Positions 48,182-53,489 of a stretch of 64,000 nt of DNA are shown here, piece after piece (within the stretch, counting starts at the first letter, position 1; each line of letters starts with the position of its first letter). This stretch comes from Burkholderiales bacterium LSUCC0115 (GTDB lineage Bacteria > Pseudomonadota > Gammaproteobacteria > Burkholderiales > Burkholderiaceae_A). The notes under the pieces were generated by a model, which did no database searches, was not told the origin of the DNA, and saw only the letters and a program-made list of their open reading frames with translations. Both the position numbers and the translations under genes were made by a program. Location: positions 206,547 through 270,546 of the forward strand of contig WJBW01000001.1 of NCBI GenBank assembly GCA_009646425.1, written 5' to 3'.

Positions 48182-49729
48182 GTGAGCTTTCGCCTATCCC
48201 ACCTCTTCACCCTGCGGGCCCGCCCAGACCCGGCCCGAACGCAGCGCCAGACCGAGGCCGAGCTCTCTCGAGAGATCGCCTTCCGACGGGCCATGGAGAA
48301 CTCCATGCCAACTGGTATGCGGGTGATCGACCTAGAAGGGCGGATCAGCTACGTCAACCCCGCCTTTTGTCGGCTGGTCGGCATGACCCAGGACGAGCTA
48401 CTCGGACAGACGCCTCCCTATAGTTACTGGCCGCCGGAGCAGCTCGAGCAGCATCGACTCAACATCAAGCGGCTTTTGCAAGGCGAGATCAAGAGCCTCA
48501 ATACACAGATCCCCGTGATGCACCGGGACGGTTCTCGACTGATCTGCCGCATGTATACCTCTCCCCTTGAGGACGCCCAGGGCAAGCAGGTGGGCTGGAT
48601 GACCTCGGTGACCGACATCACCGAACCCAGCAGGATTCGCCTGGAGCTGGCCCAGGCGCAAGAGCGGTTCATCACAGTCTTACAGTCCTTGGACGCGGCT
48701 GTATCAGTAGCGGCCCAGGCTCCGGATGACGAGCTGCTGTTTGCAAACGAGGCCTATCGAAAGTGGTTTGGCAACAGCCTGCAGGCCGGTCACCGTCCTA
48801 TGGCGGATGCCCACCGAGCCCCTTGGAGTGACACACGGGAGTACTTCCACGAACAAGTGGCCCGCTGGTTCGATGTCCGGGTGCGCAGCATTCAATGGGT
48901 CGACGGTCGGGTCGTGCAACTCCTCGTGGCCACGGACATTACCCAAAAGCGTATTGCCGATGACAACCAACGCCTGCAGTACGAGCGTCTGCAACAGACC
49001 TCACGGTTGATCAACATGGGAGAGATGGCTTCGTCGCTTGCGCATGAGCTCAACCAGCCCCTGACCGCCATCAACAACTACCTGATGGGGGCGGTAGCCC
49101 GCATTCGCTCCGCAGAGAACCGACAAGAAACCGTCGCAGCCGATGACCTCATCGAGATGCTCACCAAAACCGCCAAGCAGGCTGAGCGAGCAGGGACGGT
49201 CATTCAACGGATCCGTGGTTTTGTGAAGCGTAGCGACCCCATTCGCAAGTTCATCGACCCGGCCGCGCTGGTCGCAGAGGCTGTCGGGCTGGCCGAAATC
49301 GACGGCCGTGCCCTGGGTGTGCAAGTCCTGCAGGAACTCGACCCCGACCTGCCCTCCATTAACGTGGACCCCATCCTCATTGAGCAGGTGCTGGTGAACC
49401 TGGTTAAAAACGGGATCGACGCCATGCGAGACGCGAGCATCAAGGTCCTTCGCGTTCGGGTTCGGATCGCTGAAAACCAAATCCTGTTCTCAGTGAAAGA
49501 CCGTGGTCATGGTGTCGAACCCAGCATACGAGACCGACTCTTTGACTCCTTCTACACGACCAAAGCCGAGGGCATGGGCATGGGCCTGAACATCTGTCGG
49601 TCTATTATTGAGTCCCATCAGGGCCGACTCTGGTTTGAGGACAATGCCGATGGCGGCAGTACCTTCAAATTCTCTCTACCATTAGAGCCTGACAACCCCA
49701 TTCAAGAACTCAACGGAGAAGCGGTATGA
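48182..49729 (+). CDS. Cytosolic PAS-domain sensor histidine kinase
   Basis: The 515-residue kinase has no membrane segment. Layout: PAS domain (about 37-150, ending TSVTDITEPSR), a second PAS-like domain (about 160-255, ending LLVATDITQKR), a HisKA dimerisation domain with H-box ASSLAHELNQPLTAI (phospho-acceptor His288) and an HATPase domain with N-box VNLVKNGIDAM, KDRGHGVEPSIRDRLF and GMGMGLNICRSIIESH. It resembles FixL/DctB-type kinases. GTG start; stop overlaps the regulator's ATG. Its position opposite aceE suggests it senses pyruvate or redox state and controls the PDH operon, which is inference. Confidence 0.92.
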   Translation: MSFRLSHLFTLRARPDPARTQRQTEAELSREIAFRRAMENSMPTGMRVIDLEGRISYVNPAFCRLVGMTQDELLGQTPPYSYWPPEQLEQHRLNIKRLLQGEIKSLNTQIPVMHRDGSRLICRMYTSPLEDAQGKQVGWMTSVTDITEPSRIRLELAQAQERFITVLQSLDAAVSVAAQAPDDELLFANEAYRKWFGNSLQAGHRPMADAHRAPWSDTREYFHEQVARWFDVRVRSIQWVDGRVVQLLVATDITQKRIADDNQRLQYERLQQTSRLINMGEMASSLAHELNQPLTAINNYLMGAVARIRSAENRQETVAADDLIEMLTKTAKQAERAGTVIQRIRGFVKRSDPIRKFIDPAALVAEAVGLAEIDGRALGVQVLQELDPDLPSINVDPILIEQVLVNLVKNGIDAMRDASIKVLRVRVRIAENQILFSVKDRGHGVEPSIRDRLFDSFYTTKAEGMGMGLNICRSIIESHQGRLWFEDNADGGSTFKFSLPLEPDNPIQELNGEAV

Positions 49730-50340
49730 ACGAGATGGTCTACGTGTTGGACGATGATGAAGCAGTTCGAGACTCGCTCCGCTGGCTCCTGGAAGGCCAT
49801 GGGTTTCGGGTCACGAGCTTCGAATCTGCAGACCGTTTCCTTGCTCAGTTCCCCGTTGGCCAGACACCGCCTCGGGCCTGCCTGATTTTGGATGTGCGCA
49901 TGCCCGGCATGACAGGGCCCGAACTACAGGAAGAACTCCTGCGCCGCGAAGTCCATCTGCCCATCATCTTCATCACCGGTCATGGCACGGTGCCCATGGC
50001 GGTCGACAGCATGAAAAAAGGTGCAGTCGATTTTCTGGAAAAGCCCTTTAGCGATGAACTGCTGTGTGCTCGCGTGGCCAATGCCTTCGAGACCCTGCGT
50101 GGTGAGTCCGAGAAACTCGATGCCTGCAAGCGTGCAGCCGATCTGATCGCCCGCCTGACCCCAAGAGAGGCCCAGGTGCTCGACCGCATTGTGGCCGGCC
50201 GCCTTAACAAGCAGATTGCCGATGACCTCAACATCAGCATCAAGACGGTAGAGGCCCATCGAGCCAACATCATGGACAAGATCGAGGCCCGCACCATGGC
50301 GGACCTGATGAAGACGGCTCTCGCAGCCAAGAGTGCGTAA
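49726..50340 (+). CDS. FixJ/NarL-type response regulator
   Basis: The 204-residue regulator has a receiver domain (residues 4-118; phospho-acceptor Asp56 in LILDVRMPGMTGP, conserved Lys in LEKPF) and a C-terminal LuxR-type helix-turn-helix (LTPREAQVLDRIVAGRLNKQ, then ISIKTVEAHRANIMDK, about 143-185). It overlaps the kinase gene by ATGA, so the two form a two-component system. The likely target is the adjacent divergent promoter of aceE and the system itself; unproven. Confidence 0.93.
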   Translation: MNEMVYVLDDDEAVRDSLRWLLEGHGFRVTSFESADRFLAQFPVGQTPPRACLILDVRMPGMTGPELQEELLRREVHLPIIFITGHGTVPMAVDSMKKGAVDFLEKPFSDELLCARVANAFETLRGESEKLDACKRAADLIARLTPREAQVLDRIVAGRLNKQIADDLNISIKTVEAHRANIMDKIEARTMADLMKTALAAKSA

Positions 50341-50411: not shown

Positions 50412-50488
50412 GCGGCTGTAGCTCAGTTGGATAGAGTACCTGGCTACGAACCAGGGGGTCGTGGGTTCGAATCCTGCCAGCCGCGCCA
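50412..50488 (+). tRNA. tRNA-Arg (anticodon ACG)
   Basis: Acceptor GCGGCTG pairs with CAGCCGC, the D arm GCTC-AGTTGGATA-GAGT is typical, and the anticodon arm CCTGG-CTACGAA-CCAGG gives ACG (wobble A becomes inosine, reading CGU/CGC/CGA). The T loop is TTCGAAT. CCA is encoded (50486-50488). Confidence 0.97.
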
Positions 50489-50553: not shown

Positions 50554-51309
50554 TTGTACAAATATTTCAACAAAAACAGAATCCTCTTTACCGATCTCGA
50601 TGGCACTCTGCTGGGCGGCACGCGCCAGGACAGAGACCGCCTGACCGACTGGCTATGGTCCCAAAACGGCCAGATCAAGCTGGTGTTCGCTACTGGCCGC
50701 TCCTTCGAAAACATTGCGCCCCTGATTCAGGCTGGCGAATTGCCAGAACCCGATGCCATCATCGGCGACGTCGGCACCAGTCTGATGCTGGCCAATGGCG
50801 ACCCCATCTGCCCCAGGATTCACGCCGAGATCGACACCCTGTGGGCCCTGCCCTCACAGCTGGTTGAACAACAACTAGCAGGCATCCAAGGACTCGTGGC
50901 CCAACACAAGACTGGACCGCGTCGACAGTCGTTCACGTTCACGCCGCCAATCGATCTGCAGCGAGCCTGCCAGGCCATCGAGGCCATCGGCGCCGATGCC
51001 TTGGTGTCGGATAACCAATATTTTGATGTACTGCCCAAAGGCATCCACAAAGGATGGGCCGTCCGGCGCCTCATGGACCATTGGCAAGTCAAACCGGAGC
51101 ACGCCGTGGTCGCTGGTGACACCCTCAACGACCTGGCCATGTTCCAGGTTGGGGTCCCCGCGATCGTGGTGGGCAATGCAGAGCCAGCCCTTCGCCAGGC
51201 ACTCCCCTCCAATAGCCCGCACATCTTCCAAGCCCAGGCTCATGGTGCCGCCGGCATCTGGCAGGGCCTCAGTCATTTCGGTTGGCATCAATACCCTCAG
51301 GAGAATTGA
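50554..51309 (+). CDS. HAD-superfamily phosphatase, probable glucosylglycerol-3-phosphate phosphatase
   Basis: The roughly 251-residue HAD-IIB phosphatase (Cof/sucrose-phosphatase type) has motif I FTDLDGTLL (Asp14, Asp16), motif II in VFATGRSFEN, the motif III lysine region KGIHKGWAVRRL and motif IV GDTLNDLAMF. It sits 1 bp upstream of a GgpS-type synthase, so removal of phosphate from glucosylglycerol-phosphate is the natural role. In Pseudomonas and Stenotrophomonas a HAD domain of this type is fused to the N-terminus of GgpPS; here it is separate. The start is uncertain: the frame is open back into tRNA-Arg, and the TTG at 50554 is the last start codon before motif I. No ribosome-binding site is visible. 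Confidence 0.75.
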   Translation: MYKYFNKNRILFTDLDGTLLGGTRQDRDRLTDWLWSQNGQIKLVFATGRSFENIAPLIQAGELPEPDAIIGDVGTSLMLANGDPICPRIHAEIDTLWALPSQLVEQQLAGIQGLVAQHKTGPRRQSFTFTPPIDLQRACQAIEAIGADALVSDNQYFDVLPKGIHKGWAVRRLMDHWQVKPEHAVVAGDTLNDLAMFQVGVPAIVVGNAEPALRQALPSNSPHIFQAQAHGAAGIWQGLSHFGWHQYPQEN

Positions 51310-51310
51310 C

Positions 51311-52801
51311 ATGGCCCGCACCATCATCGTTTACCACCGCCAGCCCTTCCAAGAAATCATCGACGCCAATGGCGTGTCCACCTTTAGGCCCCATAGCAGT
51401 CCCAACGGCATCGTCCCCACACTGCGAGGCTACATCGCCAGCCTGCCGGATCCCACCGAGGCCTTGTGGCTGGCCTGGACCCAGGTCGAGAAACAAGACA
51501 ACGGTCGTCTGCTCGGCGAAGTCGTGTTACCCAAGAGCCCACCACTAGCCCCCAGCGAGATGCGGGTTCAGCGAATCGGCCTCTCGGCCGAGCTGGTCCG
51601 ATCGTTCTACCACGTCACCTCAAAGGCCACGCTCTGGCCGATCCTGCATTCCTTTCCTGGTCGATTCGACTATGACGCCGCACAGTGGGCCGATTTTCGG
51701 GAGGTGAATCAGATCTTTGCCGACGGCGTCTGCGAGGCAGCCGACACTGGAGCCGTGGTCTGGGTCCACGACTACAACCTGTGGCTGGTGCCTGGGCTGG
51801 TTCGCGCCAAACGACCAGACCTCACCATTGGCTTTTTCCTGCACACGCCCTTTCCGTCCGCAGATGTCTTTGGCATCCTGCCTTGGCGTGAGGAGATCAT
51901 CGGCAGCCTGCTGGCCTGTGACCGAATTGGCTTTCACATCCCCCGTTACGCCGAAAACTTCGCCGCCTGTGCCGAGGCCTTCTGCAGGGCCAAGCCCGCG
52001 CGGCGACAGGCGACCAGCCGGGCGTATGCCCAAGTCGGCAGCGTGCTGCACCAGCCGGCCTACACCAGTCAGCTGAGCAAAAATGGCCACACCACGCATT
52101 TGGATGTTGCGCCGATTGGCATTGACACGGGGCTTATCAGTCGAACCCTTCAACGAAAATCCATCGCCGAGATCCGCGGACGCATCCGAGAAACCCTTGG
52201 GGTTGAGAAGATGCTGCTGTCCGTGGGCCGAGTTGATTACACCAAAGGCACCTGCGAGATGCTCGATGCCTATGACCGCCTGCTCAGCCGACGACCGGAG
52301 TTGCAAGGCAAGGTCAAGCTCTGTCTGACCAGTGTGGCACCAGCTGCTGGCATGAACCATTACGCCGACATTCAGAACGACATCGAGCAGCGCGTGGGCA
52401 GTATCAATGGCCGTTACTCACGGCTGGGGTGGACCCCCATCTTGCTCTTCACCACACCGATCGCCTTTGATGAGCTGGTCGCATGGTACCGAGCTGCCGA
52501 CATCTGCTGGATCACGCCGCTTCGGGATGGACTCAACCTGGTAGCCAAAGAGTTCGTGGCCTGCCAGCGGGACGGGCATGGTGTATTGGTCTTATCGGAC
52601 TTCACCGGTGCAGTGATCGAATTGGACCAGGCTATTCATGTGAACCCCTATTCCACGCGCAGCATGGATGCCGCCATTGACGAGGCCCTGGATATGCCGG
52701 TCCAGGAGGCTCGTCTGCGAATGCAGGCCATGGTCGAACAGGTGACCCAGCACAACATCAAGACCTGGACCAAAAAGATGGTGAAGCTGCTAGCCGGGTA
52801 G
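51311..52801 (+). CDS. ggpS: Glucosylglycerol-phosphate synthase (GT20 family)
   Basis: The 496-residue GT-B glycosyltransferase joins ADP-glucose and glycerol-3-phosphate. It is closer to cyanobacterial GgpS than to trehalose-phosphate synthase: N-terminal IIVYHRQPF and SPNGIVPTLRGY, then FYHVTSKATLWPILHSFPG (OtsA has a different YNGFSN-type segment here), VWVHDYNLWLVPGL, FLHTPFPSADVFGILPWRE, GRVDYTKGTCEMLDAY and DICWITPLRDGLNLVAKEF. The product glucosylglycerol is a compatible solute. ATG at 51311 with a good AGGAG site. Trehalose-6-phosphate synthase is the alternative; the motifs above favour GgpS. Confidence 0.88.
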   Translation: MARTIIVYHRQPFQEIIDANGVSTFRPHSSPNGIVPTLRGYIASLPDPTEALWLAWTQVEKQDNGRLLGEVVLPKSPPLAPSEMRVQRIGLSAELVRSFYHVTSKATLWPILHSFPGRFDYDAAQWADFREVNQIFADGVCEAADTGAVVWVHDYNLWLVPGLVRAKRPDLTIGFFLHTPFPSADVFGILPWREEIIGSLLACDRIGFHIPRYAENFAACAEAFCRAKPARRQATSRAYAQVGSVLHQPAYTSQLSKNGHTTHLDVAPIGIDTGLISRTLQRKSIAEIRGRIRETLGVEKMLLSVGRVDYTKGTCEMLDAYDRLLSRRPELQGKVKLCLTSVAPAAGMNHYADIQNDIEQRVGSINGRYSRLGWTPILLFTTPIAFDELVAWYRAADICWITPLRDGLNLVAKEFVACQRDGHGVLVLSDFTGAVIELDQAIHVNPYSTRSMDAAIDEALDMPVQEARLRMQAMVEQVTQHNIKTWTKKMVKLLAG

Positions 52802-52811
52802 ACTCTTGGGC

Positions 52812-53489
52812 ATGGACTTTGCCCAAATCGCCCAGACCGTCTCGGTCTACGCATTGCCAGTCTTGCTGGCCATCACCCTGCACGAGGCGGCCCATGGCTA
52901 CGCCGCCAAGCGATTCGGCGACACCACCGCCGAACGGGCCGGGCGCATCAGCCTCAACCCCTTCTCGCACATCGATCCGATCGGCACCATCCTGGTTCCC
53001 ATCGGGCTCTACCTCATGACTGCTGGCGCCTTTTTGTTTGGCTATGCCAAGCCCGTCCCCGTCAACTTTGGCGCACTTCGCAACCCCAAACGCGACATGA
53101 TCTGGGTGGCCTTGGCCGGACCCGGCAGCAACCTCTTTCAGGCGTTGATCTGGGCCTGTCTGTTCATTCTGCTCAAGGCCTTTGACATCCAAGAGCCCTT
53201 CTTCACCGCCGTCGCCCGCGCTGGCATTCTGGTCAATGTGGTGATGTTCGTCTTCAACCTGCTGCCCCTGCCGCCCATGGATGGTGGTCGGATCCTGGTG
53301 GGACTTCTGCCCTGGCGTGCTGCCATGACGGTGTCACGTGTTGAGCCCTATGGCTTTTTTATTCTGCTGGCCTTGTTACTGGCGGGATTGGTCTCTGAGT
53401 GGTGGATGCGGCCTCTCATGTCTCTCACCTACCAAGCGCTAGACTGGCTCGTCTGGCCGCTGCGTCTGCTGCTGAGTTGGGTGCTGTAG
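52812..53489 (+). CDS. Site-2 protease family (M50) membrane metalloprotease
   Basis: The 225-residue membrane protease has about five to six TM segments. The zinc motif HEAAH (His24, Glu25, His28) lies in the first TM segment, and the third ligand is in NLLPLPPMDGGRIL near 150. The short form without PDZ or CBS domains matches the YwhC/MJ0392-like group found widely in betaproteobacteria; substrate unknown. The ATG at 52812 is preferred over a TTG two codons upstream. It follows ggpS by 10 bp, and the next gene starts immediately after its stop. Confidence 0.9.
   Translation: MDFAQIAQTVSVYALPVLLAITLHEAAHGYAAKRFGDTTAERAGRISLNPFSHIDPIGTILVPIGLYLMTAGAFLFGYAKPVPVNFGALRNPKRDMIWVALAGPGSNLFQALIWACLFILLKAFDIQEPFFTAVARAGILVNVVMFVFNLLPLPPMDGGRILVGLLPWRAAMTVSRVEPYGFFILLALLLAGLVSEWWMRPLMSLTYQALDWLVWPLRLLLSWVL

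Follow-up and report, generated by a model that had tools for sequence, protein, structure and literature searches.

The window, by which we mean the whole stretch of 64,000 nucleotides that was analysed, comes from a Burkholderiales bacterium, in keeping with the betaproteobacterial origin given in the first-pass annotation, and carries a tRNA-Arg gene with two adjoining genes behind it, one for a HAD phosphatase and one for a glycosyltransferase of family GT20. The features of the locus are as follows.

48182..50340, plus strand: genes for a FixL-like sensor kinase and a FixJ-like response regulator, both below the specific cut-offs; the upstream flank of the tRNA, conserved where it is seen in the genus
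50412..50488, plus strand: tRNA-Arg(ACG) gene (Rfam RF00005, 64.8 bits); the left boundary of the variable site
50554 (TTG)..51309 (TGA), plus strand: HAD-IIB phosphatase, S6PP-like, 251 aa; the proposed heterotroph-type glucosylglycerol-phosphate phosphatase
51311 (ATG)..52801 (TAG), plus strand: predicted glucosylglycerol-phosphate synthase (GgpS), GT20, 496 aa, assigned from TIGR02398, trees and the acceptor residues N156 and A345
52799..52811, plus strand: TAGACTCTTGGGC, common to the sister genome G002, where it stands directly before the ATG of the M50 gene; the right boundary of the presence/absence difference
52806..53489, plus strand, ATG at 52812: M50-type membrane metalloprotease-like gene with weak NCBIfam matches; it follows the tRNA in genomes without the pair

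We take the last of these genes to be of the M50 type from its HEAAH motif. The HAD gene starts 65 bp behind the tRNA, its stop codon is separated from the GgpS start by a gap of 1 bp, and the GgpS stop codon is formed by the first three bases of TAGACTCTTGGGC. The first-pass annotation had described a HAD and GT20 pair, 1 bp apart, behind a tRNA-Arg, and both its coordinates and the two motifs that it quoted were right. The family matches of the two genes, given below, are far beyond chance, and the pair also recurs in other genomes. By eye, TTG 50554 is the sole ATG, GTG or TTG in the HAD frame between the tRNA and motif I, and no Shine-Dalgarno sequence was seen before it. A search for sigma-70-like sites near the pair found none, the Rfam scan placed the tRNA alone above the gathering score, PADLOC gave no match, and we saw no evidence of control of the pair by the FixL/FixJ-like genes. 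A TAGACT box in the region 52799-52811 lies 7 bases 5ʹ of the M50 ATG, and is common to G002 and, before a different gene, to G004. It might act as the promoter of a transcript that has no leader; 7 of 39 ORFs have TANNNT at the same distance, as a raw count, and we dropped the idea.

What is the GT20 protein? It is the single GT20 match in a 1.84-Mb genome that is 99.96% complete. It scores 612.3 bits against TIGR02398, the model for glucosylglycerol-phosphate synthase (cut-off 569), and 404.5 bits against the OtsA model TIGR02400, 160 bits short of the cut-off of 564.85. GgpS and OtsA stand apart (SH-aLRT 100) in a 101-row tree with 16 OtsA rows, further OtsA-like rows having been thinned out. 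This tree has long branches (L010, L129, L114 and the M. thermoresistibile row), and a 39-row tree rebuilt without them separates GgpS from OtsA at 100/99. The acceptor pocket gives a similar picture. In the part of the source consulted, Arg324 and Gln146 of M. thermoresistibile OtsA are described as contacting glucose 6-phosphate (PMC6879718). Read from an alignment with the solved OtsA chain 5jij, the donor residues Arg286, Lys291, Asp385 and Glu393 of OtsA are kept in the window GgpS as R307, K312, D406 and E414, and the acceptor residues are changed, Gln146 to N156 and Arg324 to A345. Arginine at OtsA position 324 occurs in none of 84 GgpS rows and in all 28 OtsA-like rows, which are so named solely by a score below the TIGR02398 cut-off. 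Position 146 is Asn in 84 of 84 GgpS rows and in 0 of 28 OtsA-like rows, all 28 of which have His or Gln there. These residue counts leave aside L145 (under 400 aa) and L011 (the same gene as L009).

Above the TIGR02398 cut-off, below that for OtsA, within the GgpS clade and lacking the acceptor arginine, the GT20 protein is best identified as GgpS. The first-pass annotation had called it GgpS-type rather than OtsA-type and had proposed a phylogeny and a look at the acceptor pocket as checks. Family score, trees and pocket residues all agree with that call: the protein falls outside the OtsA clade, with GgpS, and both the Gln/His and the Arg that bind glucose 6-phosphate in OtsA are replaced. 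A trehalose pathway, with the GT20 protein as trehalose-phosphate synthase and the HAD protein as trehalose-phosphate phosphatase, would fit membership of GT20 and the fact that the nearest solved relatives by sequence are OtsA enzymes (the best being M. thermoresistibile OtsA 5jij, 1.3e-84). However, the OtsA score, the position outside the OtsA clade and the lost acceptor residues all weigh against it, as do the 20.7 bits that the trehalose-phosphatase model gives the HAD protein, and we accord it next to no probability. OtsA identity was rejected on score, acceptor residues and both trees.

The acceptor residues speak against OtsA chemistry; glycerol 3-phosphate as the acceptor remains a prediction. 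An enzyme of the GgpS family might have shifted to another phosphorylated acceptor, the product then being a different heteroside. Few acceptor positions were read, and the window GgpS is 45–50% identical to cyanobacterial GgpS among the matches listed, both of which leave room for such a shift. The positions that were read nonetheless match cyanobacterial GgpS, and the score lies above an equivalog cut-off. We consider a shifted acceptor improbable, and return to GgpS acting on glycerol 3-phosphate as the preferred reading.

The HAD protein is less sharply defined by family models. It scores 157.8 bits against Pfam S6PP (PF05116) and 69.4 bits against the general HAD-IIB model TIGR01484 (cut-off 41.8); no specific equivalog scored above its cut-off, and TIGR02399, the model for cyanobacterial GgpP, gave no match. 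The HAD motifs D-x-D-G-T, T/S-G-R, K and G-D-x-x-N-D are intact in all rows with letters there (60 or 61 of 61). Pairwise distances of HAD and GgpS are correlated over 61 pairs, with L014 and L120 dropped for HAD proteins under 200 aa (r = 0.917; 0 of 1000 shuffles reach this value), and r is 0.715 among row pairs with a GgpS distance above 0.35. We searched 51 genomes for TIGR02399: all 28 cyanobacterial and 22 of the 52 non-cyanobacterial loci among the best 80 of 423 GgpS loci, plus the window genome (G000). None of the 23 non-cyanobacterial genomes asked, G000 included, had it above the cut-off, and G000 had no match at all. Since TIGR02399 is absent from these 23, no known candidate other than the S6PP-like HAD is left for the second step outside cyanobacteria.

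Among the 28 cyanobacterial genomes, TIGR02399 is above the cut-off in 18, with fragments in 2 more. The 21 without a neighbouring HAD comprise 14 above the cut-off, 2 with fragments and 5 with nothing. In seven cyanobacterial loci (L031, L041, L054, L059, L065, L066 and L074) an S6PP-like HAD lies upstream of ggpS. Because three of these seven genomes have no TIGR02399 match and the other four also have TIGR02399, the S6PP-like HAD is not a plain replacement of that GgpP in cyanobacteria.

HAD-IIB enzymes are often promiscuous. The HAD protein of the window might serve another substrate, with a different phosphatase completing the pathway, and the four cyanobacteria that carry both enzymes are in keeping with this. 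Against it, HAD adjoins GgpS in 51 of the 52 non-cyanobacterial loci among the best 80 of 423, co-evolves with it and is fused to it in GgpPS, and the TIGR02399 phosphatase is absent in 23 of 23 non-cyanobacterial genomes asked. We regard a different substrate as very improbable, and the S6PP-like HAD as the probable second enzyme.

In the parts of two papers that were consulted, heterotrophs are described as carrying a fused GgpPS, with two genes in nearly all producing cyanobacteria (PMC10873239, on Marinobacter), and some heterotrophs as also harbouring fusions (PMC6753628). We counted HAD genes within 400 bases of GgpS in the best 80 of 423 GgpS loci. At 58 of these 80 a HAD homologue is encoded upstream as a separate frame, namely at 51 of 52 non-cyanobacterial and 7 of 28 cyanobacterial loci. 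The one non-cyanobacterial locus without it, L021, is on a contig that starts 37 bases before the match. There were 0 fused loci among the 80, but these best 80 of 423 are weighted towards close relatives of the window GgpS, and fused GgpPS is under-represented in them. Within this set, the nearest non-cyanobacterial GgpS loci are as a rule split. The first-pass annotation was right that the genes are separate, but the arrangement is not, as it had suggested, unusual among heterotrophs, being split in 51 of the 52 nearest non-cyanobacterial loci of the best 80. GgpS itself is rare in the class, being above the cut-off in 4 of 369 evenly drawn genomes, G000 included. In the other three, too, GgpS is unfused and a HAD match lies upstream; in one of them the HAD frame ends 594 bases ahead. 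Two sister genera gave no match in 14 genomes.

Eleven genomes of the genus were compared. Five have the split pair (G000, G004, G005, G006 and G010), one has a fused gene (G008), and no GgpS was found in the remaining five, which are 83–97% complete. The fused GgpPS of G008 is 769 aa long, scores 632.5 bits against TIGR02398 and has an S6PP-like N-terminal domain, which the window HAD resembles. Its synthase part is 39–40% identical to the window GgpS; in the 101-row tree it sits on a long branch that falls outside the split rows. Because the fused copy is so distant and so placed, the two forms present in the genus, a split pair and a fused GgpPS, differ in descent. In G008 the fused gene (L114:6174-9530) stands directly behind a gene for an MscS-like mechanosensitive channel, an osmotic-stress pairing. 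The same contig also carries what we take, from the frames, to be urease genes.

The site behind the tRNA-Arg differs among these genomes. In G001, G003 and G007 the order is FixJ, tRNA-Arg and M50, with no pair between, and the left flank of the empty site is visible in all three. In G002 the tRNA-Arg also adjoins M50; the contig stops at the tRNA's first base, and the left flank lies outside it. In G004, G005 and G006, FixJ is followed by a tRNA-Arg(ACG), whose acceptor stem differs somewhat, and then by the pair; in G004 and G006 an FAD gene follows and M50 is on other contigs. No such site could be located in G008 and G009, which gave no M50 match, and in G010 the contig starts within the HAD gene. 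The RpoB tree pairs G000 with G002 as sisters (100/100), and their RpoB proteins are 96.5% identical. From the tRNA to the shared TAGACTCTTGGGCATGG there are 19 bp in G002 and 2310 bp in G000, a difference of 2291 bp.

Is the pair a recent mobile insertion at the tRNA-Arg gene? The 19 bp in so close a sister and the three further genomes with tRNA and then M50 favour one. However, the search between 50380 and 53000 found no repeat of the tRNA end beyond a 17-bp match at 82%, the GC (0.59–0.60) and GC3 (0.70–0.73) of the pair are within the range of the neighbours, and the block behind the tRNA-Arg holds no gene besides HAD and GgpS, so no integrase. Moreover, G004, G005 and G006 have a homologous pair in the same place behind tRNA-Arg(ACG), with GgpS 64% identical. 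A recent insertion is therefore possible but doubtful. Between G000 and G004, identity is 64% for GgpS, 78% for FixJ, 70% for FixL, 57% for M50, 46% for HAD and 36% for the FAD gene. Because the value for GgpS lies within the spread of the other proteins, very recent transfer from the G004 clade is unlikely. For the same reason, and because the homologous pair is in the same place, an account as likely as recent insertion is vertical descent with losses on several occasions, or recombination across the conserved flanks. Mapped on the RpoB tree, “split” requires two or more changes, which would fit either a double gain at one site or a single gain followed by several losses. The idea of a tRNA-borne genomic island was rejected, with no att-like repeat, no further gene and unremarkable GC.

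In the 39-row tree the GgpS of the genus forms one clade (97/92), next to an uncultured proteobacterium and then to Gemmatimonadaceae and a further member of the class. Other Burkholderiales GgpS lie elsewhere: Variovorax groups with Agaricicola and Ancylobacter, L049 groups with Stella, Tistrella and Oceanibaculum, and Thiomonas and Thiobacillus take a third place. Constraining the eleven Burkholderiales rows to one clade was rejected (p-AU 2.2e-6), in a test that left out L015 and L029, proteobacteria of untold order among the Burkholderiales rows, which could sharpen the rejection falsely. Thiobacillus (L071) was counted as Burkholderiales on what we presume to be its GTDB placing. The best tree has three changes for Burkholderiales origins and 0% of 200 bootstrap trees have one, although the starred branches of the 39-row tree do not by themselves force more than one origin. 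Lateral transfer of GgpS at depth is supported, as judged from the trees, because a single Burkholderiales clade is rejected by the AU test. The possible lateral transfer raised by the first-pass annotation is thus supported at depth, but a mobile element at the tRNA is not, given the lack of a tRNA-end repeat beyond the 17-bp match and the ordinary GC and GC3. The split pair is also carried by the 1.13-Mb plasmid pTM3 of Tistrella mobilis (L068), a possible vehicle for spread. Separately, the GgpS proteins of marine Synechococcus and Prochlorococcus cluster with the window clade (SH-aLRT 89 in the 101-row tree, 91/95 in the 39-row tree) and not with other cyanobacteria, a hint that GgpS in that lineage has an origin of its own.

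Which glucose donor would the window GgpS use? In the excerpts consulted, Synechocystis GgpS is reported to require ADP-glucose and not to take UDP-glucose (PMC6004087); the need for ADP-glucose is also given in PMC8168540 and in a review (PMC4390839). In the 99.96% complete window genome we found no GlgC above the cut-off, the three weak matches being RfbA, MurU and GalU. GlgA and sucrose synthase gave no match of note in this genome, and sucrose synthase was rejected as a source of ADP-glucose on that ground. There was also no match to GH13 (PF00128), and therefore, by that model, neither a glycogen branching enzyme nor a GH13 glucosylglycerol phosphorylase. Set beside the need of Synechocystis GgpS for ADP-glucose, these negative searches weigh against the glucosylglycerol reading of the pair. 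Only two of the eleven genus genomes have GlgC and GlgA above the cut-off, G004 (with GgpS) and G003 (without). We also looked for GlgC in the genomes of 41 of the 52 non-cyanobacterial loci in the best 80 of 423, and in those of 8 of the 28 cyanobacterial ones. All 8 cyanobacterial genomes have GlgC. The 41 others divide into 11 with GlgC above the cut-off, one (G432) with it in two pieces on two contigs, and 29 with none, in a sample that contains several incomplete MAGs, four members of the window genus and G448, possibly a poor genome, which yielded not a single match. The 29 include isolates (Stella vacuolata and Tistrella mobilis) and many MAGs.

The donor-pocket residues do not follow the presence of GlgC. 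Residues L319, V363 and E367 of mycobacterial OtsA are described as setting the preference for ADP- or UDP-glucose (PMC6879718, as far as consulted). They correspond to T340, I384 and E388 in the window GgpS; as an example, Thiomonas delicata, without GlgC, shares the same set of residues with the WY1.70 MAG, which has it. Donor choice varies among OtsA relatives (PMC6879718 and PMC5247666, in the parts consulted), and a donor shift would therefore hardly be surprising for such a fold. Two explanations fit: GgpS uses some other nucleotide glucose, or an unrecognised route supplies ADP-glucose. UDP-glucose would be the likeliest other donor, because GalU, which makes it, is present and GlgC was not found in the genome. 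We propose, at what we judge to be even chances, that ADP-glucose is not the donor of the window GgpS and of much of the non-cyanobacterial split clade, UDP-glucose made by GalU being the most likely substitute, in a pathway free of glycogen metabolism.

Taken as a whole, the gene pair very probably represents a two-step pathway for the compatible solute glucosylglycerol, with UDP-glucose as the likeliest donor. GgpS would join the glucose of a nucleotide sugar to glycerol 3-phosphate, and the HAD enzyme would then remove the phosphate to give glucosylglycerol. The pair would belong to a split-operon lineage that transfer has carried into Alphaproteobacteria, Burkholderiales, Gemmatimonadota and other groups. 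In the genus it lies behind one tRNA-Arg, where it is present or absent as a block. The family, the active-site signature, the co-evolution and the absence of another known phosphatase were computed; the product, the role in salt stress and co-transcription we infer. Saline adaptation through the pair is plausible from the pathway.

In the usual account, glucosylglycerol is a solute of cyanobacteria and of a few heterotrophs with a fused enzyme. The genomes searched here hold split HAD–GgpS operons in several bacterial groups, with a phosphatase unlike the cyanobacterial one. Glucosylglycerol synthesis genes are listed among the most numerous osmolyte genes in 30 MAGs of hydrocarbon degraders (PMC13410759, in the part consulted), and the trait outside cyanobacteria is therefore not new. 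As a split locus the pair offers little that is new; its main interest lies in the donor question. If many hosts lack a source of ADP-glucose, the textbook donor fails for the family as a whole, and, if this is true, such enzymes could yield glucosylglycerol from UDP-glucose, which would be useful in engineering. G000 and G002 form a natural pair for asking whether the operon widens the salt range.

How does the locus compare with known systems? It resembles the cyanobacterial GgpS and GgpP of the Synechocystis sp. PCC 6803 type in having separate genes, a homologous GgpS and the same acceptor residues at the positions read. It differs in that its phosphatase is an S6PP-like HAD-IIB protein rather than TIGR02399 and adjoins GgpS, and in that the genome lacks GlgC. 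The fused GgpPS of Stenotrophomonas, Pseudomonas, Azotobacter and Marinobacter, likened here by its description in the consulted part of PMC10873239, has both functions in the same order, phosphatase first, whereas the locus here encodes two proteins, with a stop codon and 1 bp between the frames. A search of the open-access literature found, among the titles and abstract openings listed, no description of split HAD–GgpS operons in Burkholderiales, or of GgpS with another donor. The split pairs of Thiomonas, Thiobacillus, Stella, Tistrella, Variovorax, Hyphomicrobium and others have the same order and families; the pair described here differs from them in sequence and site, and its GgpS forms, with that of the genus, a clade of its own.
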